Source: a virus
Virus record (IMG/VR): IMGVR_UViG_3300034198_019599
Location: 1 to 35,312 of that record
Strand: one strand, 5' to 3'
Length of the DNA: 35,312 nt
The position numbers were made by a program, and so were the translations under genes. Positions 1-33,429 of this stretch are shown in pieces. How positions within the stretch are numbered: the first letter of the stretch is position 1; every line of letters starts with the position of its first letter. The notes beneath the pieces were generated by a model. That model ran no database searches. It saw nothing but the letters and a program-made list of their open reading frames with translations, and was not told the DNA's origin.

Positions 1-1
1 A

Positions 2-229
2 ACTACAACTACTGCAGCTCCTACTACAACTACAACTACTGCAGCTCCTACTACAACTACAACTACTGCAGCTCCTACTACAACTACGACGACCACTACT
101 GCTGCTTCAACTACTCCAGCTCCAACTACAACTACAACTACTACAACTACTGTTGCACCGACTACTACTACTACTACTACCACAACTACTGCTGCTCCTA
201 CAACTACTACAGCAGCACCATATACCCCA
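2..229 (+). repeat. 27-bp tandem repeat encoding Thr/Ala/Pro linker
   Basis: A unit containing ACTACTGCAGCTCCTACTAC recurs every 27 bases, with GCAGCT at 14, 41 and 68, then degenerates into Thr-codon runs (ACT/ACA/ACG/ACC) up to about 229. The unit is nine codons, so gain or loss of copies keeps the reading frame. Such arrays commonly change length by slippage or recombination. The array may extend left of the window. Confidence 0.85.
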
Positions 230-778
230 ACTATTGATTCTTTAACAACTACTTCTACACAAACTTCCATTACCGTTTCTTGGACAAGCAATTCAGGTTA
301 TGCCTCATACAAGATTTACTCCACTTCTGGAGCTATTGCTGGACAAGATGTTTACGCAGATGGAAGCCCAGGCTCTTACACTTGGACAGGGCTAACGTGT
401 GGCTCAGCAGGCTCTGCTTCTGTAGTGCTTTATAGCGGAGCTGGTCAAACTGGAAATCGTTCAGCTGCTGGAACTGGCTCTTTTGCTAAATCTACAGTTT
501 CTTGCGCAGCAACTACTGCAGCCACTACTACTGCAGCACCAACCACTACTACTGCAGCCACTACTACTGCAGCACCTACTACTACAACAGCTGCAGCTAC
601 GACTACAACTACTGCAGCTACGACTACTACAGTGCCCCCAGGTGCTGCTGGAAACAGATGTACATCGTTTGACGTAGCTCAAGGTTGTTCTAGTACATCA
701 GTTTGTGCTGCAGCGTGTTCTAGCGGAGCTGGTTGTAATCCAATTACAGCTGGCTGGGATAATAGCGGTTGGTGCTAA
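2..778 (+). CDS. Thr/Ala/Pro-rich surface protein with Fn3-like domain (5'-truncated)
   Basis: The 5' end lies outside the window; 258 codons are visible. In order there is a Thr/Ala/Pro tract built on a TTAAPTTTT unit (about residues 1-75), a domain of about 90 residues with the fibronectin-III signature SITVSW followed by SGYASYKIYS, a second Thr/Ala tract (about residues 168-215), and a C-terminal segment of about 45 residues with six cysteines ending NSGWC. Fn3 and low-complexity linkers are common in exposed phage tail, fibre and decoration proteins, so a surface display or adhesion role is likely; this is inference. The Thr-rich tracts resemble mucin-like O-glycosylated linkers, and glycosyltransferase genes follow 1.7 kb downstream. 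The six clustered cysteines suggest a disulfide-bonded or metal-binding cap. Which virion part it belongs to cannot be told without the missing N-terminus. Confidence 0.75.
   Translation, partial: TTTTAAPTTTTTTAAPTTTTTTAAPTTTTTTTTAASTTPAPTTTTTTTTTVAPTTTTTTTTTTAAPTTTTAAPYTPTIDSLTTTSTQTSITVSWTSNSGYASYKIYSTSGAIAGQDVYADGSPGSYTWTGLTCGSAGSASVVLYSGAGQTGNRSAAGTGSFAKSTVSCAATTAATTTAAPTTTTAATTTAAPTTTTAAATTTTTAATTTTVPPGAAGNRCTSFDVAQGCSSTSVCAAACSSGAGCNPITAGWDNSGWC
508..641 (+). repeat. Second Thr/Ala codon repeat tract
   Basis: Degenerate repeat of ACTACTACTGCAGC-type units inside the surface-protein gene, encoding alternating TTT and AA/AP blocks between the Fn3-like domain and the Cys-rich end. The copies are less exact than those at the left edge. 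It shares codon choice with the first array, so the two probably arose by duplication. Confidence 0.75.
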
Positions 779-1430: not shown

Positions 1431-2432
1431 GTGGAGTTCTTTAACAAAATAAGCATGGCGCAAATTGACCCAAACGGTCTTTGCAATGTTGGGTGTTGGT
1501 TCTGTCCTGTGTCTCACGGCGGTAACCCTGAAGCTGGTAGAGCTGACATGCCCGTTGAAACCCTTCGCTCTGTAATTGAACAGCTTATGGAAGGAAAAGG
1601 AACTTTTGTTTCAGATACTTTTGATTTTGTTTACACTGCTCACTATAACGAAGTGCTTTTGTATAAATACTTTGAAGAAATGTTACAAATCTTTAGAGAA
1701 CATGGGTTACGCACTATTGTACTTACAAATGGAACCCCACTTACAAAAGCTAAAGTAGACATCATTAAAGAATACCAAGACGTTGTTTATGGAATATGCT
1801 TGAATATTCCAGCTGCAGAAGAAGAGCTTTGGGCTAAGTACACAGGTAAAAACCCAAAAATGTTTTCAAAACTTATGGAAAATATTCAATATGCAATTGA
1901 TTCTTTACCTGCAATGTTTGAGTCAAAAAACTTATCAATTCAAATCAATGGGGTAACAGAAGAGTCTCTAGCTTCTAAAAACGGTTGGATAACTCTTTTA
2001 GAAAATGCTCCTGACATTGATTTAAGAGTTGATGGTGGAGATTTAGATAGACAGTACAACCTTTTCTTAGAACGATTCCCTGGCATAAACGCTTACAAAA
2101 TGCCAAGTTTAATTGACAGAGCTGGTCACTTGGACAAAATGGGAGTAATGACCAACATTGATGGCATCAAAAAATATACTCAGCAAGACAAGAAACGAGT
2201 AGTTGGTTGTGGAAACGGTATTGAAGTTGGTGGTCGTCCAAATGGTTGGATTCACATAAACGCCAACGGTGCGTTAATTATTTGTTGTAACGACTTTGAC
2301 TTTGAAACGGTATTTGGCAATATTAATGAGAAGCCAATTAAAGATATTTGGATGAGTATAGACCACAAAGAGATGGTTCTTGACTCCTATAAAACATTGT
2401 GCACTACTTGTGCTCATGCAATTTGGGAGTAA
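1431..2432 (+). CDS. Radical SAM/SPASM-domain protein
   Basis: 333 residues. The N-terminus carries the radical SAM cluster motif CNVGCWFC (C18, C22, C25; CX3CX2C), which binds the [4Fe-4S] cluster that cleaves S-adenosylmethionine. The C-terminal part has a SPASM-like set of cysteines: one in VVGCGNG, a CC pair in ALIICCND, then CTTC close to the end, preceded by the typical GNINEKPIKDIW spacing. SPASM proteins usually modify peptides or proteins, or act on sugars, by radical chemistry. The GTG start at 1431 is taken because an ATG at 1455 would leave only nine residues before the cluster motif; neither has a clear ribosome site, so the start is uncertain. The following glycosyltransferase ATG lies one base past its stop. 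The substrate is unknown; neighbours suggest a glycan or surface-protein modification cassette. Confidence 0.85.
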   Translation: MEFFNKISMAQIDPNGLCNVGCWFCPVSHGGNPEAGRADMPVETLRSVIEQLMEGKGTFVSDTFDFVYTAHYNEVLLYKYFEEMLQIFREHGLRTIVLTNGTPLTKAKVDIIKEYQDVVYGICLNIPAAEEELWAKYTGKNPKMFSKLMENIQYAIDSLPAMFESKNLSIQINGVTEESLASKNGWITLLENAPDIDLRVDGGDLDRQYNLFLERFPGINAYKMPSLIDRAGHLDKMGVMTNIDGIKKYTQQDKKRVVGCGNGIEVGGRPNGWIHINANGALIICCNDFDFETVFGNINEKPIKDIWMSIDHKEMVLDSYKTLCTTCAHAIWE

Positions 2433-2433
2433 T

Positions 2434-3342
2434 ATGAAAAGCATTTTTATTCAACTTGCGGCATACCACGATTATGAACTACCCGAAACTATTTTAGATT
2501 GCATTGAACAAAGTTCAGGTAAATATCAATTAAATTTTGGAGTTCATCTTTGTTACAAAGACAATAATGACATTGTGTTACCTGACCTTCCAAATATAAA
2601 AGTTGCTACAAGTAAGGCCCCTAAAAACATAGGTTTAGGTTGGGGGCGTTATTTAGCCCATCAATTTTATAATGGGGAAGATTTTTATTTGCAAATAGAC
2701 TCTCACAGTAAAATGGATGAAAATTGGGATTTAAAACTTATTGAACAAATTTATGATTATCAATTGCACGGATTTGCTAAACCTTTAATAACCAATTACC
2801 CACGAAACTATTGGTATGACAATGATGGGCTGTTCAATTGCGATGCTGGAAACAGTACTAGTGAAATTAGATTTATTGAAAAACCAGACCAATTTAAAGA
2901 ATCGTTATTGCCATCTCAAACTGCTTATACAACTAGAGAAAAAAATATATTTTCTAAATCTATTTCTGGAGGTTCTGTATTTACAGTGGGACCATTTATA
3001 ACCCCAAACACAGATATTTCATTCTATGGTGAAGAAATATTTATTGCAGCTAGAGCTTACACTCACGGTTTTGACATTCTTATTCCAAAAGAACAATTCA
3101 TGTACCACCTTTATTTTGACCACAAAAAACCAAAAAGTAATAAACGAACAATGGTGTGGAAAGATTACCCGAATGAATTTGATAGCATGGATGTTATTTC
3201 TAAAAACCTTATAAAAAGAATGTTTCAAGAAAACTTGGTTGGAGAAGGTTTTTTGGGAACAGAACGCACACTCAAAGAATTTGAAGATTTTTCTGGGTTG
3301 AATTTTTCTACCGGAGAAATCACTGAGTGTGGAGACCAGTGA
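2434..3342 (+). CDS. Glycosyltransferase, GlcNAc-transferase-like (PF11397 type)
   Basis: 302 residues. The N-terminus MKSIFIQLAAYHDYELPETI followed by a segment around GVHLCYK matches the opening of the PF11397 GlcNAc-transferase family (SIFVQIASYRDPEL-like), whose eukaryotic members attach GlcNAc to a protein hydroxyl group. An LQIDSHSKMDENWD segment occupies the place of the metal-binding DxD/DxH motif in that family. Start ATG 2434 is chosen over an in-frame ATG at 2380 because the latter lies well inside the radical SAM gene. It overlaps the next gene by four bases. Probable reaction: transfer of a sugar from a nucleotide sugar to a virion protein or host glycan; donor and acceptor cannot be read from the sequence. 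Confidence 0.82.
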   Translation: MKSIFIQLAAYHDYELPETILDCIEQSSGKYQLNFGVHLCYKDNNDIVLPDLPNIKVATSKAPKNIGLGWGRYLAHQFYNGEDFYLQIDSHSKMDENWDLKLIEQIYDYQLHGFAKPLITNYPRNYWYDNDGLFNCDAGNSTSEIRFIEKPDQFKESLLPSQTAYTTREKNIFSKSISGGSVFTVGPFITPNTDISFYGEEIFIAARAYTHGFDILIPKEQFMYHLYFDHKKPKSNKRTMVWKDYPNEFDSMDVISKNLIKRMFQENLVGEGFLGTERTLKEFEDFSGLNFSTGEITECGDQ

Positions 3343-4322
3343 AAATAGCAATAACTGCTTATGTAGACAACCATCACTTAACTAAATTTGTAGACGAATG
3401 TAACTTAATGACCTTTAGTGGTCAGTTATTAGATTCTCGGTTTACATTTGTGTTGTTTGCTCATTCCGAAGCAGTCCCCCTTCTAGACACCTATCCTAAT
3501 GTTCAAATTATTGAGTACGAGGTTCCTAAGGATAAGTACTATACAGATTACAAATTTGCTCGGTCTTTAGTCTTTTCCTACGACAAAGTAGATTTTTTTG
3601 CAGACTACGACTACGTAATTAAAACCGATACGGATGTAATACTTACACCTAACTTAAACAACTTCTCATTTGATGAAAAAATCTATGTTGGTTTAGGACA
3701 TTACAGCGTTAACCAAGAAAGCATAACGGCTTTAAAACAAGCAGCAATTGATTTTGGTTATCCTCAATATAGCCGTATTGCAGATATGCACTCCACAATA
3801 ATTGCAAAAACATCAACCATGATGGATGTCATGAAGCTTTCAGACGAGCTGTGCCGAAAGATGTACTACGAGCTTCCTGAAGACGGGGAATGGGGGACGG
3901 CTAAGTTATGGCGCGGTCCCCTAGGCGGTAACTCTGGGGTCTGCTCTATGTATGCGGCTGAAATCATTTTGTCCTCTGTTTACCCCAAAGAACAAGTAGT
4001 CGTTACTGACAGCATTGATGCCGGGTCTGATTGGGAAAAACCTTGGTCTGAGGTGTACCACTATCACTGTTATCACCATGACTTTATATACTCTAAGTTT
4101 CAATCTCGTTATGGGTCATACAGAGACCTAGACTATGCATTGGGAGATTCTTCAGCAGAATATTGTTTAAACGTATACATCGCACGACGAGAAGCAGCTA
4201 AAAAAAATCCCGAATTGTTTAATAAACCAGAACCAACAGTGGACCCTCTTCCACCTGGATATAATGGAATACCCCAAATTCAGTATCAATATGGTTCAGC
4301 ATTACCCTTTAAAAAAGTATAA
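3339..4322 (+). CDS. GT-A-like glycosyltransferase with DxD motif
   Basis: 327 residues from GTG 3339, which forms a GTGA overlap with the upstream gene; GTG 3327 would add four residues. The start VKIAITAYVDNHH and the later YDYVIKTDTDVILTPN give a Rossmann-like beginning and a DTD metal/nucleotide-sugar site typical of GT-A enzymes. A WRGPLGGNSGVCSMY segment and a His-rich stretch (YHYHCYHHD) may form the acceptor or metal site. I cannot name the exact family. Directly coupled to the preceding glycosyltransferase, it probably acts on the same glycan, for example as a second, chain-extending enzyme. It is the last gene before the head-closure-type gene. Confidence 0.8.
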   Translation: MKIAITAYVDNHHLTKFVDECNLMTFSGQLLDSRFTFVLFAHSEAVPLLDTYPNVQIIEYEVPKDKYYTDYKFARSLVFSYDKVDFFADYDYVIKTDTDVILTPNLNNFSFDEKIYVGLGHYSVNQESITALKQAAIDFGYPQYSRIADMHSTIIAKTSTMMDVMKLSDELCRKMYYELPEDGEWGTAKLWRGPLGGNSGVCSMYAAEIILSSVYPKEQVVVTDSIDAGSDWEKPWSEVYHYHCYHHDFIYSKFQSRYGSYRDLDYALGDSSAEYCLNVYIARREAAKKNPELFNKPEPTVDPLPPGYNGIPQIQYQYGSALPFKKV

Positions 4323-22589: not shown

Positions 22590-23558
22590 ATGCTGCCACC
22601 TGAGGCCTATACAGCCAACATTACCGATTTCCAGTTCCGACTGTTAGCCATATTATGCCGTTTAGCGGGCCCTGGAGGGCTCGTACAGGCCTCAGCAGCT
22701 GAGCTTTGTGCAGAGAGTGGCAAACGAAGCGACAAGACGGTCCGTAGCGCCCTCAAGGGTTTAGAGGCAGCTGGCTTAATAGCCACAGAAGCAACTAAAC
22801 GGGCAAACGGTTACCAGGGAAAAAAGATTATACTGGTAAAAAATTACCGCCTTGTGGATAACGAGCCGGTAAAAAATTACCGCACCTCACCTGACTACAT
22901 AACCTATAGTCGTATTAGCCATCCTAGCTATAAGCCATTAGTACCTAATAGCCAAGCTAGTTATAAATTAAAAGAATCTGAAACCAAAGGTTTCACAAAG
23001 GAGATTAAGGTTCCTATGAGAAAATGGGAAGATGATGGAGACAATCTGGCAGGCTTTGGGCTCGTTGAACCCAAGGATGAGCCGCAGCCTAAAATCAGAA
23101 AGTCCGACCCAAAAACCAGAGGTAAGCGACCCGAGCATGAGTGGACAGCAATGGACGTTGCTGCAGAGTTTAGCTACCAAGTGGGCCGCAAATACCCGTT
23201 ACTTCCAGGAACTGTATCTGTTAAACAATTATCGGGCGCCCTTAGAAAATTCAGAACACAGTACGAAACAACCCCGCTTATAGAGCTTGAACTGTTGCGC
23301 TTGTTTATGGGCGACAACAGAAACTTTAAAGATATTGGAGATGAGGCTCCGCTTCTTTACAAGAAGTACCTTGCCTCCTTTGGCACCAAGATGAACCAGG
23401 CTCGTGAGAATTTGGGCCTCAACAAGGTGACCGCTAAGATGGAAACAACACCGGCTTCTGATAAGCTCGTGGCAAGTGATGGTCGTACCTTCCAGAATTC
23501 ACTCTCTGGTCGTGCACAACTAGAGCGTCATGAAAAACGATTGAAGGAGGCGAAATGA
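22590..23558 (+). CDS. Winged-helix DNA-binding protein, replication-initiator-like
   Basis: 322 residues. Residues about 10-85 form a winged helix: DFQFRLLAILCRL, ASAAELCAESGKRSDKTVRS (turn and recognition helix), LEAAGLI, and a wing with YQGKKIILV. A low-complexity linker (about 85-185) follows, then a compact helical C-terminal domain (VAAEFSYQVGRKYPL, SGALRKFRTQYETTP). This layout resembles lambda O and DnaD-like initiators: DNA-binding domain, linker, helicase/loader-contact domain. A DnaC/IstB-like loader is encoded 0.7 kb downstream and a DnaB-like helicase 2.2 kb downstream, supporting an initiator role. Paired palindromic repeats lie within the linker-coding DNA. A transcription regulator is the alternative. 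Confidence 0.65.
   Translation: MLPPEAYTANITDFQFRLLAILCRLAGPGGLVQASAAELCAESGKRSDKTVRSALKGLEAAGLIATEATKRANGYQGKKIILVKNYRLVDNEPVKNYRTSPDYITYSRISHPSYKPLVPNSQASYKLKESETKGFTKEIKVPMRKWEDDGDNLAGFGLVEPKDEPQPKIRKSDPKTRGKRPEHEWTAMDVAAEFSYQVGRKYPLLPGTVSVKQLSGALRKFRTQYETTPLIELELLRLFMGDNRNFKDIGDEAPLLYKKYLASFGTKMNQARENLGLNKVTAKMETTPASDKLVASDGRTFQNSLSGRAQLERHEKRLKEAK
22835..22883 (+). repeat. Two copies of palindromic 16-mer inside the winged-helix gene
   Basis: GGTAAAAAATTACCGC occurs at 22835-22850 and at 22868-22883, exactly 33 bases apart (about three helical turns). The core GGTAA-AAAA-TTACC is an inverted repeat with five-base arms. Other short palindromes follow: ATTAG-TAC-CTAAT near 22948 and GAAACC-AAA-GGTTTC at 22980-22994. 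In protein the copies read VKNYR twice. They are candidate binding sites for the encoded protein. Confidence 0.7.
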
Positions 23559-24062: not shown

Positions 24063-24224
24063 TTGACTGACGACGAACTAGAACAAGCCCTAATGCAATT
24101 ATATGAGTTAGGGCTTGTTTCAGTTGAGTACGATGAAAATCTAGAAGCGCGGTTTAAAGTAACGGATGAAGAGAAGCTAAAAGATTTGATTGAAACATTA
24201 GAAGAGGGGGAAAAAAATGTATGA
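24063..24224 (+). CDS. Small helical acidic protein, 53 aa
   Basis: Begins at TTG immediately after the previous stop (TAATTG); ATG 24093 would give 43 residues. The order of elements (LEQALMQLYELGLVSVEYDE, a strand with ARFKVT, then DEEKLKDLIETLEEGE) looks like a half winged-helix: helix, turn, hairpin, helix. Its end carries GAAGAGGGGG, the ribosome site for the loader gene, and overlaps it by eight bases. Function unknown. Confidence 0.55.
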   Translation: MTDDELEQALMQLYELGLVSVEYDENLEARFKVTDEEKLKDLIETLEEGEKNV

Positions 24225-24939
24225 CATAAATACTCTGTCACCGTTAAAAAAGCATTGGTTATTACGTACTTCAAATATCCCAAGAAGATTTATAGGTTTA
24301 GAACCACAAGACATCGTTACTAAAGTCGGTTCTTTTCCAGACGAGATTTCTAATTGGTTAGATGATGTTTCAGAAGGCCACGTAATTCAAAGTATTGGCA
24401 ATATTGGCACCAACGGCGTAGGGCTTGTCTTTGATGGGGGTCCGGGACTGGGAAAGACAACCCACGCCGTTGTTGCTGCCATGGAGGTTATACGTAACCT
24501 TCCAGAGGACGTAGTTAAAGCAGCCACGGTTATGCACGTTAAACAAGCAGAGTTTGGGTTGGGATTTCGCCCAATCTATTACATGACTTATCCCGAGTTT
24601 CTTGCTAGAAAAAAATCAACTTTTGATATGGAAGGAACTGACAAACGGGAGATGGTCTACGAGTTAGATGGTTTCCATGGTCGTTGCCGTTTTGATTGGT
24701 TAAATGTTCGTTTACTTATTTTGGATGATTTAGGTAAAGAATACGGTTCTAAGTATGACGATACTTCTTTTGATGAGATTCTTCGTTTACGTTACGACAA
24801 AGGATTACCTACGATTGTCACTACAAATGTGCGTTTAGAGAACTGGGAAGCACATTACAGTGAAGCTATGGCGAGTTTCGCTAACGAAGCATTCATTAGA
24901 GTTCCTATACTAGGTTCAGACCTAAGAGGCGCCCAATGA
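24217..24939 (+). CDS. DnaC/IstB-like AAA+ ATPase (helicase loader)
   Basis: 240 residues. Walker A is GGPGLGKTT (G74-T82), Walker B is LLILDDLGKE with D170-D171, and a TIVTTNVRLENW segment with downstream Arg residues gives sensor 1 and the end of the AAA+ core, as in DnaC and IstB-like ATPases. These proteins open or place the DnaB ring on DNA. The N-terminal 60 residues (LKKHWLLRTSNIPRRFIGLE) carry the short, basic start common in this family. Coupled to its neighbours by an eight-base overlap upstream and ATGA downstream, with the DnaB-like helicase gene 0.85 kb further on. Confidence 0.85.
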   Translation: MYDINTLSPLKKHWLLRTSNIPRRFIGLEPQDIVTKVGSFPDEISNWLDDVSEGHVIQSIGNIGTNGVGLVFDGGPGLGKTTHAVVAAMEVIRNLPEDVVKAATVMHVKQAEFGLGFRPIYYMTYPEFLARKKSTFDMEGTDKREMVYELDGFHGRCRFDWLNVRLLILDDLGKEYGSKYDDTSFDEILRLRYDKGLPTIVTTNVRLENWEAHYSEAMASFANEAFIRVPILGSDLRGAQ

Positions 24940-25786: not shown

Positions 25787-27040
25787 ATGGCAGCAGATAA
25801 CGAACACAGATTAGTCAGTAAGGTAATCAAAGAACGCGAGATTACCTCTGTACTTCAACGTGGAATCACTGACGTCTGGTTCTTAGATGACGACAACCGA
25901 AAAGTGTGGTCGTTTGTACGTAAGCACTACAGCGAATACAGCGAAGTGCCTACAGCAACAACTGTTTTAGACCATTATCCAAATTACAAGGTTCTTAATG
26001 TTGAAGACAGCATGGACTATTTGCTGGACACAATGGTGGATTTTCGTCGCCGTTTACTTACACGACAGGGATTAGAAAATGCGGTTGAGCAATTACAAGA
26101 TAACGACCATGAGTCTGCACTTCGCGCAATGGAGCAAACAGTCTCCAAAGTTAACGAACAAGGAGTACTGGGAACTCATGAGGTTGACCTTACAAAGAAC
26201 ACCGAAGAGCGATATAAAGAATATCAAGCAATACAAAATAAAGAGTTCTTGGGTATTCCAACTGGTTTCAAAGACATTGACGAAGCTACAGCAGGTTTGC
26301 AAGGTGGACAGTTAGTAACGATTATTGCCCCACCTAAGACAGGTAAGTCCCAGGTTGCATTGCAGATTGCTATCAATGTTCACAGCCTTGGTAAAACCCC
26401 AATGTTCCAGTCGTTTGAAATGAATAACCACGAACAGCAACAACGTCACGACGCTATGCGTTCACACATTGACCACGGAAGATTAAGACGAGGAAAGCTA
26501 TTACCAGAAGAAGAGAATCGCTATATTGACATGCTTAACAAAATGGAAACAGAGCACCCGTTCCATTTGGTAGATGCTGTTAATGGAATTACTGTCTCTG
26601 CTTTATCAGCAAAGATTGAGCAGCTAAAGCCAGACATCGTGTTTGTAGATGGTGTGTACCTAATGCTTGACGATTTGACTGGGGAAATGAACACCCCACA
26701 GGCAATCACAAACATTACTCGTGCTTTAAAAAGACTTGCTCAAAAAGTAGATAAACCAATTGTTATTACAACACAGACTCTGCTTTGGAAGATGCGTGCG
26801 GGTAAAGTGACTGCAGACTCTATTGGTTACTCTTCTTCCTTCTTCCAAGACTCAGATGTTATTTTGGGATTAGAGCCTGTAGAAGAAGATGATTCAATTC
26901 GTTTACTTAAGGTTGTTGCGTCTCGTAACTGCCCACCAAAAGAAACATCACTTACTTGGAAATGGGAAACAGGTTGCTTCCACGATGAAGCTGAGATGAT
27001 GAAGTGTCCATACTGCTCTAACTGGAACACAAATGGTTGA
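25787..27040 (+). CDS. DnaB-like replicative helicase
   Basis: 417 residues. Walker A APPKTGKSQ (residues 181-189) within a RecA-type core, followed by MFQSFEMNNHEQQQRHDAMR (motif H1a/H2-like), IVFVDGVYLM (Walker B region), ITRALKRLAQKVDKPIVITT (H3) and an HVTSR-like arginine-finger region (VVASRNCP). The N-terminal 110 residues are a smaller collar domain than in bacterial DnaB. The C-terminus carries MKCPYCSNWN, a half zinc ribbon not usual in DnaB. It overlaps the primase start by eight bases, so helicase and primase are probably made in step. Possible phage-type hexamer that unwinds ahead of the polymerase. Confidence 0.9.
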   Translation: MAADNEHRLVSKVIKEREITSVLQRGITDVWFLDDDNRKVWSFVRKHYSEYSEVPTATTVLDHYPNYKVLNVEDSMDYLLDTMVDFRRRLLTRQGLENAVEQLQDNDHESALRAMEQTVSKVNEQGVLGTHEVDLTKNTEERYKEYQAIQNKEFLGIPTGFKDIDEATAGLQGGQLVTIIAPPKTGKSQVALQIAINVHSLGKTPMFQSFEMNNHEQQQRHDAMRSHIDHGRLRRGKLLPEEENRYIDMLNKMETEHPFHLVDAVNGITVSALSAKIEQLKPDIVFVDGVYLMLDDLTGEMNTPQAITNITRALKRLAQKVDKPIVITTQTLLWKMRAGKVTADSIGYSSSFFQDSDVILGLEPVEEDDSIRLLKVVASRNCPPKETSLTWKWETGCFHDEAEMMKCPYCSNWNTNG

Positions 27041-27974
27041 TATTGAAAAAGTACTCTTAAATCTAGATGTAACTCTTACAGCTCAACGTGGAGATGAAGT
27101 GCAGGGCTTGTGCCCTATGCACAAAGCTCGCACAGGTAGAGAAGATATGCATCCAGATTGGTGGATTAACTCTATAACTGGTGCTCATTTTTGTTTTTCT
27201 TGTGGATACAAAGGAAACATTTACACACTAGTTGCTGACTTAAAGGGCATGGATTACTTTGATGCCAAAGACTATGTTGACTCTAGCCAAGAGGCAGATG
27301 TAGATACTTTGTTAAAGCGAATCCGAGAATTACCACAGTACATTTCTACAGCAGAAGAACCACTTGCAATGTCTGAAGCCCGACTTGCAGTGTTTGTTGA
27401 CCCACCAGAAAATGAGTTGCGCAAACGGTTCATTACTTCTGCTGCTGCTAAACACCACGGTGTTTTATGGGACCCAAAACACGAAGCTTGGATTGTGCCA
27501 ATTCGTGAACCTAATGAGTACACCTTATGGGGTTGGCAAGAAAAGGGTGCACGTGGTCGGTTTTTTCGTAATCAACCACAGGGAGTTAAGAAGTCTAAAA
27601 CTGTCTTTGGTGTTGAGGTAATGTCTACAGAGACTCTTGTAGTTGTTGAGTCACCATTGGATGTTGCTCGTTTGGCAAGTGCCGGAGTTGAAGGAGCCAT
27701 CTCTACTTATGGAGCCATGGTCAGTGAAGAGCAGGCAAAGATTATGCGTAGAGCTAAGAAAGTTATTGCTGCGTTTGACAAAGATGATGCAGGAATGCAC
27801 GCCAATGAGTTGATGCGTGGATTCGCTAGGAAGTACGGGATGGAACTGTCATATTTCAATTACACTGGAATAGATGTTAAAGACCCAGGTGATATGACAG
27901 AGAAAGAAATTAAACGAGGAATAGACACTGCTCGTGACATGATTTATGGCAAAGCAGCTTACGTATGGCATTAG
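27033..27974 (+). CDS. DnaG-like DNA primase (CHC2 zinc finger, TOPRIM)
   Basis: 313 residues. Zinc-binding N-terminus C27-x2-H30 and C54-x2-C57 (CPMH, CFSC) fits CHC2. The TOPRIM domain contains VVVESPLDVARL with E206, and a FDKDDAG metal loop with D249, D251 and D252. A middle segment with WIVPIREPNEYTLWGWQEKG resembles the start of the RNA-polymerase core of DnaG. It lacks a C-terminal helicase-interaction domain of bacterial length. The start is in an eight-base overlap with the helicase gene; the next small gene begins inside its last codons. Confidence 0.9.
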   Translation: MVDIEKVLLNLDVTLTAQRGDEVQGLCPMHKARTGREDMHPDWWINSITGAHFCFSCGYKGNIYTLVADLKGMDYFDAKDYVDSSQEADVDTLLKRIRELPQYISTAEEPLAMSEARLAVFVDPPENELRKRFITSAAAKHHGVLWDPKHEAWIVPIREPNEYTLWGWQEKGARGRFFRNQPQGVKKSKTVFGVEVMSTETLVVVESPLDVARLASAGVEGAISTYGAMVSEEQAKIMRRAKKVIAAFDKDDAGMHANELMRGFARKYGMELSYFNYTGIDVKDPGDMTEKEIKRGIDTARDMIYGKAAYVWH

Positions 27975-31431: not shown

Positions 31432-33429
31432 ATGAACATAATTACAACAAAAGAACAGTTACAAGACCTTGTTGAGTTTTATTCCAAGGTAGAGGGTTTT
31501 GCATTTGACGTTGAAACCGTTGGGGAAAACAGAATCCAACCAGTTGTTAATGACGTACTTTGGATTTCTTTTGCTACAGATAACAGGACAGACGTCATAC
31601 CTATGGGACACCCAAATGGTGAGTTTTTGCATTGGGATAAAGAGCTTTTGTTAAGTGGGCAAAAGAAAGTTGCTGCAGGTAAAGAAGTAAAAGAAACTGA
31701 TTACTCAAAAAACCAAGCAAAGTGGAACCCAGTATTTGATGCACCTCCTGTTCAGTTGCTTCCAGGCGACGTATTCAAAGCACTTAAACCTTTGTTCTTT
31801 AGTGACCAGTTAAAAGTTGGGCACAACGTTAAGTTTGATTTAAAATCAATTGCCAAATATTACAGAGGTGTTGTTCCTAAAAAACCTTTCTTTGATACTT
31901 TGATGGCTGCATTTATTTTAGATAACCGTAATCGTGGAAAGTTAGGATTAAAAGATTGCTCTGAAAAATATTTAAAGATTAAAGTTGAAAAAGGTATTGG
32001 AGCAATGGTTGAAGTCCATTCTTTTTCCGAAGTTGCTTATTACTCAGGGTTTGACTCTGAAGTAACTTGGAAGTTGTACAAAGAGTTAGAGCCCCGATTA
32101 ACGGGAAGTCTTGCTCGTGTATGGGGTTTAGAGATGGATGTTGTTGGCGCTTTGTGTGATATGGAGTTAGCTGGTGCAACGGTTGATGTAAAAGAGCTTG
32201 AAAGTTTACAGAAAAAATTAGAGATAGACATTGATGACGCTAAAGCTAGGGCATGGAAATTGGCAGGAAAAGCTTTTTCTATGAACTCAGTACAAGAAAA
32301 ACAACAGATTTTGTTTTCTCCTAAACCAGAAGGACGCGGAATTAAACCAAATCTTAAAGTAAAGATTGCTTTAACAAGTAAAGGCCAAGATATGTTGGCT
32401 GCAAATCAAACACCAACTATTAACCAATACTCTGTATCGTCAGACGCACTGGAGTTTTACCGGTCTAAAGACGAACTAGTGGACGCAATTTTAGATTACC
32501 AAGATTTAAATAAACTTATGACAACATATGTAATGCCTTATTTAGGTGGCGAAATTACCCGTACTAGCCTTGGGAAATCGCGCATTATTGAAAAGAAGTC
32601 TTTAATGATTGAAGGCAAAGTACACACAAGTTTTAAATCTCATGGAGCAGAGACGGGTCGTTTTTCTAGTAGTGACCCAAACTTACAAAACATCCCAAGC
32701 AGTGGTAAGTACGGTAAGTTGATTCGTAATCTTTTTGTTGCTCCACCAGGTTACAAATTGGTTGTAGCAGATTACTCGCAAATTGAGCCACGCATTGTTG
32801 CTTCGTTTTCTAACGACCCAATTATGATGGACAACTATTTAAATGGTAAAGATATCTACACAACGATTGGTGACACTGTTGGGTTAGACCGTAAAGCAGG
32901 TAAGGTATTGGTTTTAGCAATGACTTACGGCGTAGGTCCCGACAAGATTGCTTCTTCTCTAGGCCTATCTGTAGAAGCAGCAAAGAAACTTTTAAATGAT
33001 TTTACTAAACGATTTAGTGACATTGATAAGTACAGAGCAAAGGTTATTCGTTTGGCCTCTCAACGTGGGCCAACCCCATATGTAGAAACATTGTTTGGTC
33101 GTCGTAGGTATATCCCAGATTTAAAAAGTTCTGAACGAGGGTTAAAAAGCAGAGCAGACCGTCAAGCTTTTAACACCGTTATTCAAGGCTCTGCAGCAGA
33201 TATTATGAAATTAGCTATTGTAAGAGCCCATTCTTGTTTTGTGGATGAGCCAAATGTGAATGTCCTATTGACTGTGCACGATGAACTCGTTACTGTTGCC
33301 CGTGAAGACCTAGTAGAAGAAACAGCTGAAGCGATTCGGGAGTCTATGGAAAACATTAAATTGCCAGAGATTACTGTTCCACTTATTGCTGACGTAAAAA
33401 TTGTAGACAAGTGGGGAGAAGCTAAATGA
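31432..33429 (+). CDS. polA: Family A DNA polymerase with 3'-5' exonuclease domain
   Basis: 665 residues. The exonuclease domain has D26 and E28 in FDVET, D136 in HNVKFD and the YSGFDSEVT segment (DEDDy type). The polymerase domain has motif A DYSQIEPR (D447), motif B RKAGKVLVLAMTYG (R487, K491, Y499) and motif C HDE (H616, D617, E618). No 5'-nuclease domain is present. In motif B, Leu495 occupies the place of E. coli Pol I Phe762, a substitution seen in many viral family A polymerases. ATGA overlap with the following zinc-ribbon gene. Confidence 0.95.
   Translation: MNIITTKEQLQDLVEFYSKVEGFAFDVETVGENRIQPVVNDVLWISFATDNRTDVIPMGHPNGEFLHWDKELLLSGQKKVAAGKEVKETDYSKNQAKWNPVFDAPPVQLLPGDVFKALKPLFFSDQLKVGHNVKFDLKSIAKYYRGVVPKKPFFDTLMAAFILDNRNRGKLGLKDCSEKYLKIKVEKGIGAMVEVHSFSEVAYYSGFDSEVTWKLYKELEPRLTGSLARVWGLEMDVVGALCDMELAGATVDVKELESLQKKLEIDIDDAKARAWKLAGKAFSMNSVQEKQQILFSPKPEGRGIKPNLKVKIALTSKGQDMLAANQTPTINQYSVSSDALEFYRSKDELVDAILDYQDLNKLMTTYVMPYLGGEITRTSLGKSRIIEKKSLMIEGKVHTSFKSHGAETGRFSSSDPNLQNIPSSGKYGKLIRNLFVAPPGYKLVVADYSQIEPRIVASFSNDPIMMDNYLNGKDIYTTIGDTVGLDRKAGKVLVLAMTYGVGPDKIASSLGLSVEAAKKLLNDFTKRFSDIDKYRAKVIRLASQRGPTPYVETLFGRRRYIPDLKSSERGLKSRADRQAFNTVIQGSAADIMKLAIVRAHSCFVDEPNVNVLLTVHDELVTVAREDLVEETAEAIRESMENIKLPEITVPLIADVKIVDKWGEAK

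Follow-up and report, generated by a model that had tools for sequence, protein, structure and literature searches.

A putative replication origin inside the initiator gene of a phage lineage, with iterons, a conserved A+T-leaning segment and a covarying hairpin

In phage lambda, the iterons of the origin lie in gene O, and after them comes an A+T-rich region of 40 bp, which opens when O binds, as one account describes it (PMC5043065). Two lambda iterons together with the A+T tract are given elsewhere as the minimal unwinding unit, in a source that describes the roles of hairpins or cruciforms in lambdoid origins as a question (PMC7466680). A related arrangement is reported for oriL of SPP1, in which direct repeats in gene 38 are combined with an A+T-rich unwinding element, gp39 being the loader and gp40 the helicase (PMC6316719). 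For repL/oriL of P1, the origin was postulated to lie inside the initiator gene, and synonymous changes in the A+T part cut RepL-driven amplification in the experiments described (PMC9948254). In RepA of PLE, a Vibrio satellite, the DNA-binding domain and the iteron type are reported to co-vary, the C-terminal domain is shared and the modules swap by recombination; the same report suggests that an origin-directed nuclease may select for origin change (PMC8263062). In the literature covered, which lies mostly outside the subscription journals, we found no paper on the origin of the phage group studied here and none that reports a co-varying hairpin in a phage origin lying within a gene.

The DNA studied here, referred to as the window, is the whole 35,312-base virus record IMGVR_UViG_3300034198_019599, for which an initial annotation had proposed a replication origin inside an initiator gene, in the style of lambda O. 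This proposal is supported by synonymous conservation, by co-variation of the recognition helix with the iterons, by a kept hairpin and by a lambda-like order of elements. We conclude from sequence comparison that positions 22835-22995, in the linker-coding part of the initiator gene, are very probably the theta-type replication origin of this phage lineage. Our verdict is that the putative origin works like the in-gene origins of lambda and SPP1, as a modular variant that by profile does not belong to the lambda O family. The aligned genes, from related lake viruses, confirm a three-part DNA element at this place, consisting of two iterons, an A+T-leaning stretch that is nearly invariant and contains a fully invariant 13-mer, and a hairpin, so that the same DNA is read as protein and as a putative origin. 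Origins of uncultured phages are rarely located, and here conservation alone places the candidate within ~160 bp.

The four annotated iterons of lambda O (NC_001416, 39034-39118) occupy codons 117-145, compared with two iterons at codons 82-98 in the window gene. They are followed by 43 bp of 77% A+T in lambda and, in the window phage, by 95 bp of 64% A+T before the hairpin. Lambda then has a 28-bp hyphenated inverted repeat, GTCAGAGAATTCTGGCGAATCCTCTGAC (39162-39189), with mismatches near its middle, and the window phage has, downstream of its A+T stretch, the hairpin at 22979-22995. Iterons, A+T-rich stretch and inverted repeat therefore stand in the same order on the coding strand of both. 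The lambdoid Salmonella phages g341c and Oslo carry an unrelated perfect stem, GTCCGAA-AGCG-TTCGGAC, in the same place, whereas Turner, SEN34, Mulock, a Yersinia phage and GF-2 carry there a relative of the lambda sequence that pairs less well; thus, the hairpin shape is not kept in all lambdoids. Unlike lambda, the window phage encodes its own DnaB helicase and primase. This resembles the gp38-gp39-gp40 set of SPP1, as outlined in PMC6316719, in that an origin-binding protein, a loader and a DnaB-type helicase are phage-encoded and the repeats are in-gene. The likeness is one of arrangement, and SPP1 has a second origin, oriR, whereas the 13-mer core occurs once per record in the window family. 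RepL of P1 is a different initiator, and its postulated in-gene origin is comparable by arrangement (PMC9948254).

The initiator gene, its protein and its neighbors

The initiator gene is an open reading frame of 322 amino acids at 22590-23558 (plus strand, as are the parts of the DNA element and the loader, DnaB-like helicase and primase genes), exactly where the initial annotation had put it. Its protein matches HTH_36 of Pfam (E 1e-06, residues 10-64) and PHROG 270, "replication initiation protein" (E 3.7e-09). A winged helix, a linker and a helical C-terminal domain had been read from the sequence, and this layout is recovered in the AlphaFold2 model built with 34 members, which has a winged helix to about residue 86, disorder over most of residues 87-182 and helices thereafter. 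The model is middling overall (mean pLDDT 64.5), with pLDDT of ~74-88 across residues 1-80, where helices and a beta wing are predicted, and of 35-48 in most blocks of the linker. The predicted winged-helix DNA-binding domain (residues 1-86) is encoded by 22590-22847 and the disordered linker (residues 87-182) by 22848-23135, and the DNA element occupies codons of the wing end and of the disordered linker, mostly the latter. From the fold, we infer that the helix of residues 48-60 (22731-22769) reads DNA.

With Foldseek, the initiator model found only generic winged helices in the PDB, none at E <= 0.001. Against viral models there were 73 matches at E <= 0.001, with TM-scores mostly below 0.35, and several of them are annotated as replisome organizer or lambda-O-like. 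The window protein did not match the Pfam lambda-O family (Phage_rep_O) at E <= 0.001. At E <= 1 this family was absent from the four matches of the window protein and, for the 34 members, from the best 25 of 41 families. Among PHROGs, O-like families match the initiator weakly (E 0.005-0.06). One weak match to ClpP in a sequence search of solved structures (E 0.015) was taken as chance.

Downstream of the initiator gene come genes for a loader, a DnaB helicase and a primase. Two of these, loader and helicase, had been named in the initial annotation, and Pfam and PHROG matches identify them as a DnaC-like helicase loader (24217-24939; PHROG 50, E 5.9e-24) and a DnaB-like replicative helicase (25787-27040; Pfam DnaB_C, E 1.7e-28). 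They are followed by a DnaG-like primase with zinc ribbon and Toprim (27033-27974; Pfam Zn_ribbon_DnaG and Toprim_2, PHROG 47), and a SNF2-type helicase and a family-A DNA polymerase are also encoded downstream (Pfam, PHROGs). By gene content, a loader and a DnaB-type helicase are thus encoded together with the initiator, as in SPP1. The family-A DNA polymerase (31432-33429) is closest to those of Streptomyces phages such as GiJojo and BRock (~37% identity), hinting at an actinobacterial host for the window phage. Near the structural genes, at 1431-4322, inspection by eye revealed two glycosyltransferase-like ORFs and another ORF that contains CxxxCxxC, a motif known from radical-SAM proteins.

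Iterons and the recognition helix

A scan of viral_contigs for relatives of the initiator gave 221 matches, 80 of which were kept, and more relatives came from two further scans and from one scan for a variant with an HNH domain. The 167 gene copies collapse to 112 distinct genes. L050 (5′ end missing) and L162 (incomplete) were excluded before counting, and the codon alignment is also without L076 and L079 (HNH insertion), leaving 108 genes. No initiator relative was found among cultured phages (tblastn, E 0.01) or in GTDB genomes.

Two exact copies of the iteron GGTAAAAAATTACC are located at 22835-22848 and, 33 bp downstream, at 22868-22881; they begin 245 bp inside the initiator gene, and the repeat is kept in relatives. 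The repeat had originally been described as a pair of palindromic 16-mers. The 16-mer GGTAAAAAATTACCGC is indeed exact at 22835 and 22868, 33 bp apart, and encodes VKNYR twice; only its 5-bp arms, GGTAA and TTACC around AAAA, are palindromic, so that the full 16 bp do not form a perfect palindrome. Below three mismatches, nothing in the window matches the 14-mer except these two copies; at up to three mismatches there are nine matches, against a chance mean of 6.9. Rarity of the repeat was rejected as an argument for an origin, similar exact close repeats being found in the low-complexity start of the window (1-650) and in a tail gene (12904). Judged against its relatives, the repeat is marked by conservation and not by rarity. 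The pattern GGTA[AG]AAAATTACC is present in 6 of the 11 records tested and is confined to the initiator gene in those six. The repeats thus lie in the initiator's own gene, as in the in-gene origins of lambda and SPP1, and are conserved at synonymous sites.

In one relative (L016) there are three iteron copies, again spaced by 33 bp. Different repeats occupy this place in other members, namely AAATTACCGCAC (2-3 copies), GGACATTTGTGTCC, TAATGTCCACCC, GGACATTACAAGCCC, GGACATCAGAGTCC and CAGACTGTCACC, and the 108 genes fall into seven iteron classes. The class is matched by residues around the presumed recognition helix. Where the core of the last copy is TTACC, S-D precedes the helix motif [KR]T[VI]R and S, T, N or A follows it (63/63); where it is TGTCC, R follows the helix motif TVR (40/40); and in the remaining five genes (TGACC) the residue after the helix motif is R as well. 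In the window protein, the position occupied by Arg in relatives with TGTCC iterons is Ser53. Iterons and recognition helix of the presumed reader protein thus co-vary, which is indirect support for binding.

A tree was built from the C-terminal half (74 rows); without the 2 HNH rows, the helix and iteron labels agree in 72/72. The two-state label changes three times on this tree and the class label six times; the address, that is, the helix with its iterons, and the C-terminal half have therefore been reshuffled. The association within the window family amounts to three independent pairs on the best tree and one on well-supported branches, and a sign test on the C-terminal-half tree is not significant because there are too few independent pairs. 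Swapping of the address module resembles what is described for PLE replicons, in which the DNA-binding domain and the origin exchange together (PMC8263062). In that account the PLE origin is noncoding, whereas the candidate of the window lies in a gene, between its variable and its shared halves.

Three contigs encode an in-frame HNH endonuclease domain (L076, 4989-6266; L079, 2346-3623; L162, 3001-3720), which matches PF01844 with E 1.5e-07 in L076. It sits between the winged helix and the linker, where relatives carry iterons, and in L076 and L079 it is followed by altered repeat-like sequences. The insertion recalls the origin-directed nuclease Odn, as presented in PMC8263062.

The conserved segment and the hairpin

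The iterons are followed by a conserved A+T-leaning segment of 95 bp (22884-22978, 64% A+T), a putative unwinding element recognized by synonymous identity and per-base conservation. Conservation at synonymous sites in relatives had been suggested as a check in the initial annotation, and the outcome is strongly positive. We counted identical codons over sequence pairs sharing the amino acid at a position, in 67 genes (70 distinct genes minus L050, L076 and L079). The mean synonymous identity of the initiator gene is 0.64, and 8-codon blocks at 22878-22973 reach 0.91-0.96. Over runs of 16 codons, the peak is 0.959, starting at 22929-22932 (67 sequences), against peaks of 0.709, 0.708, 0.649, 0.629, 0.685 and 0.621 in six further genes from these phages, each represented by 29 to 61 sequences, that is, 0.96 versus at most 0.71 in the six neighboring genes.

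Within this segment lies the invariant core ATTAGTACCTAAT (22937-22949), an imperfect 5-3-5 palindrome present in 108/108 relatives, in which the codons TTA GTA CCT AAT (22938-22949) do not vary at all. Each of 11/11 records, 35-100 kb in length, contains exactly one copy. Because every iteron class has the 13-mer, its reader may be a partner that all members share, e.g., a host factor or the loader. The repeat and the conservation could in principle reflect the protein or recent ancestry, VKNYR being a useful peptide and the relatives too close, and many relatives are indeed close (best-segment protein identity 66-93%). Synonymous conservation is, however, far above that of the rest of the gene and of six neighbors on the same contigs, four consecutive codons are invariant in 108 genes, and pairing in the hairpin persists across 28 forms of the peptide encoded over it. 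We consider this explanation to have next to no chance of being right.

The DNA after the iterons had also been called A+T-rich. Positions 22900-22975 do have 67% A+T against 53% for the gene; the window as a whole has ~60%, and 667 of its 60-mers are more A+T-rich. At 64-67%, the segment is thus above its gene and not unusual for the window, and A+T-richness alone was discarded as an argument for an origin; its sequence is strongly conserved. The further palindromes noticed in the same region are real and weightier than first thought, namely ATTAGTACCTAAT (22937-22949) and TGAAACCAAAGGTTTCA (22979-22995). A second, partly conserved inverted repeat is located at 22905-22945, with a stem of at least 6 bp in ~55% of the 108 relatives, e.g., ATGACT-AATA-AGTCAT in many members.

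The hairpin at 22979-22995 is TGAAACC-AAA-GGTTTCA in the window. At this slot, all 108 codon-aligned genes have a Watson-Crick stem of at least 6 bp (mean 7.13 bp), with 18 different stems, compared with a gene-wide slot mean of 3.59 (sd 0.80) and an average of 5.9 in the next distinct region. Among 13 distinct six-bp cores, 78/78 positions pair, whereas reshuffling of the 3′ arms among the cores gives a mean of 39.2 pairs and a maximum of 57 (2000 shuffles). Because the best stems were chosen, the complementarity is partly by construction, and the slot comparison and the shuffle serve as controls. All four orientations are found at the innermost two pairs. When all loci are taken together, 129 of 130 distinct regions have a stem of at least 6 bp, with 17 six-bp cores; five loci matching outside the initiator gene were dropped first, and the 130 regions include near-copies, some of which may be one gene cut differently by contig ends. 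The exception (L252/L355) is GTGaCGCA-TAC-TGCGcCAC, with 7/8 pairs and one A-C mismatch. The peptide encoded over the hairpin has 28 forms, with base pairing kept. These results indicate that compensatory changes preserve the hairpin across variable encoded peptides. As single-stranded DNA, the hairpin of the window folds with -4.6 kcal/mol on either strand.

Compensatory change would fit RNA as well, and the segment, being inside a gene, is presumably transcribed. The conserved stretch and the hairpin might therefore act in the mRNA, in translation, processing or stability, and not in DNA. G-U pairs are usually tolerated in RNA stems. When G-T pairs were allowed, none of 70 sequences gained a longer stem; in a set of 110, three did (L076, L079 and L238), all anchored on a wrong upstream match, so that no correctly anchored stem gains from such pairs. 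The stem is normal in L076 and L079, and L238 is within the 108 genes of the slot test. No Rfam family matches the window at gathering score, and action in the mRNA would leave the iterons that match the helix unexplained. We therefore regard a role in the mRNA as very unlikely, and the hairpin as more plausibly a DNA structure.

The in-gene sites could instead be an operator through which the initiator represses or times its own operon, the true origin being elsewhere. The co-variation of helix and iterons would look identical in that case, and the GC skew of three complete relatives does not mark the initiator consistently. In these end-repeated genomes of ~100 kb, detrended cumulative skew places the initiator within the lowest 2% in G002 and G003 and at the 38th percentile in G001, and none of the three has its global minimum there (G004, which is without end repeats, was left out of this test, its profile having been computed). 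The sites start, however, 245 bp inside the gene and not at a promoter, and an operator leaves the conserved A+T segment, the invariant 13-mer and the covarying hairpin unexplained. Furthermore, the whole element parallels the lambda origin, and none of the 11 records has a second copy of the 13-mer. An operator thus appears improbable, if less so than a role in the mRNA, and we favor a replication origin.

Such an origin could fire as follows. The winged-helix domain would bind the two palindromic iterons, as the co-variation suggests, and binding would strain or melt the adjacent A+T-leaning segment, by analogy with lambda and SPP1. The C-terminal domain and the phage DnaC-like loader would then bring in the phage DnaB helicase and the primase, judging from gene content. 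The hairpin would work in its folded form, most likely when the opened segment is single-stranded; it may direct the loading of the helicase or priming, or delimit the bubble, and this step is the least certain. The origin would be modular, with the DNA-binding domain and the iterons changing together and the 13-mer core, the A+T segment and the hairpin common to all members.

Searches by DNA alone and a second initiator family

A scan for iteron pairs found 41 stretches, and the 13-mer follows in 38. Two of the others (L362 and L364) are the initiator gene cut by a contig end. The third (L361) encodes a different protein, with 29.6% identity over 71 residues, that matches PHROG 7498 (E 3.3e-69); its helix reads SDKTIRN, and four TTACC-type repeats lie directly after the winged helix. 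Among its relatives, NEKTIRR is found with GGACA-N4-TGTCC (L375) and SDRTIRS with GGAAG-N4-CTTCC (L374), and two Geobacillus phages have SERTVKR and SERSVRR with TGGCA- and TGGCC-type repeats. These comparisons indicate that an independent initiator family repeats both the arrangement and the helix-iteron pairing.

We also scanned for two close GGACA-N4-TGTCC sites and obtained at least 120 stretches. Among the matches listed, 119 stretches were analyzed, of which 109 lie in an ORF of at least 120 amino acids, 103 of these being distinct. Among the distinct ORFs listed, 71 match PHROG 270 "replication initiation protein" and 69 match HTH_36 at E <= 0.01. In the 30 ORFs that match the winged-helix profile of the window family, the first site follows at a median of ~18 codons (range -1 to 54). 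By these scans, iterons placed inside a gene and directly after its winged-helix part are thus a common arrangement in phages. Arg occupies the key position in 69/73 listed ORFs with a recognizable helix, in a search that limited the allowed residues and preferred, per locus, an ORF with a helix-like motif. Of the 11 members of the L361 family among the listed matches, 10 have R by motif, and the eleventh (L432, SERTVQRW) also has R. Arg may simply be a common residue of such helices, and a general helix-iteron rule is not proven by these counts, because R may be the default.

With rather more doubt than confidence, we suggest that many tailed phages have an in-gene "two-code" origin. It would consist of a swappable address (the helix and the iterons, with Arg after T-V-R going with G as the second half-site base and Ser, Thr, Asn or Ala with T) and of a lineage-wide engine (the 13-mer core, the unwinding segment and a DNA hairpin selected for shape and not for sequence). 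If this is true, address switching would let related phages avoid cross-replication, decoys and origin-directed nucleases. The seven classes in 108 genes are a natural library of initiator-iteron pairs for testing rules of DNA recognition. Likewise, a hairpin held by pairing across 17 six-bp cores in coding sequence makes for a testable claim on a structural step in origin firing, and a repeat is also present at this position in lambda; what such structures do is described as open in one discussion of lambdoid origins (PMC7466680).

A tighter form of the core pattern, ATTAGTACCTAAT with TTAAAAGA, had no match in 84,980 genomes in a bacterial genome search. The core pattern itself was found in at least 120 stretches, and among the 80 matches listed, 75 are in the initiator gene and five are elsewhere. 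It also occurs, apparently by chance, in one unrelated ORF common to three contigs (L261, L262 and L273).
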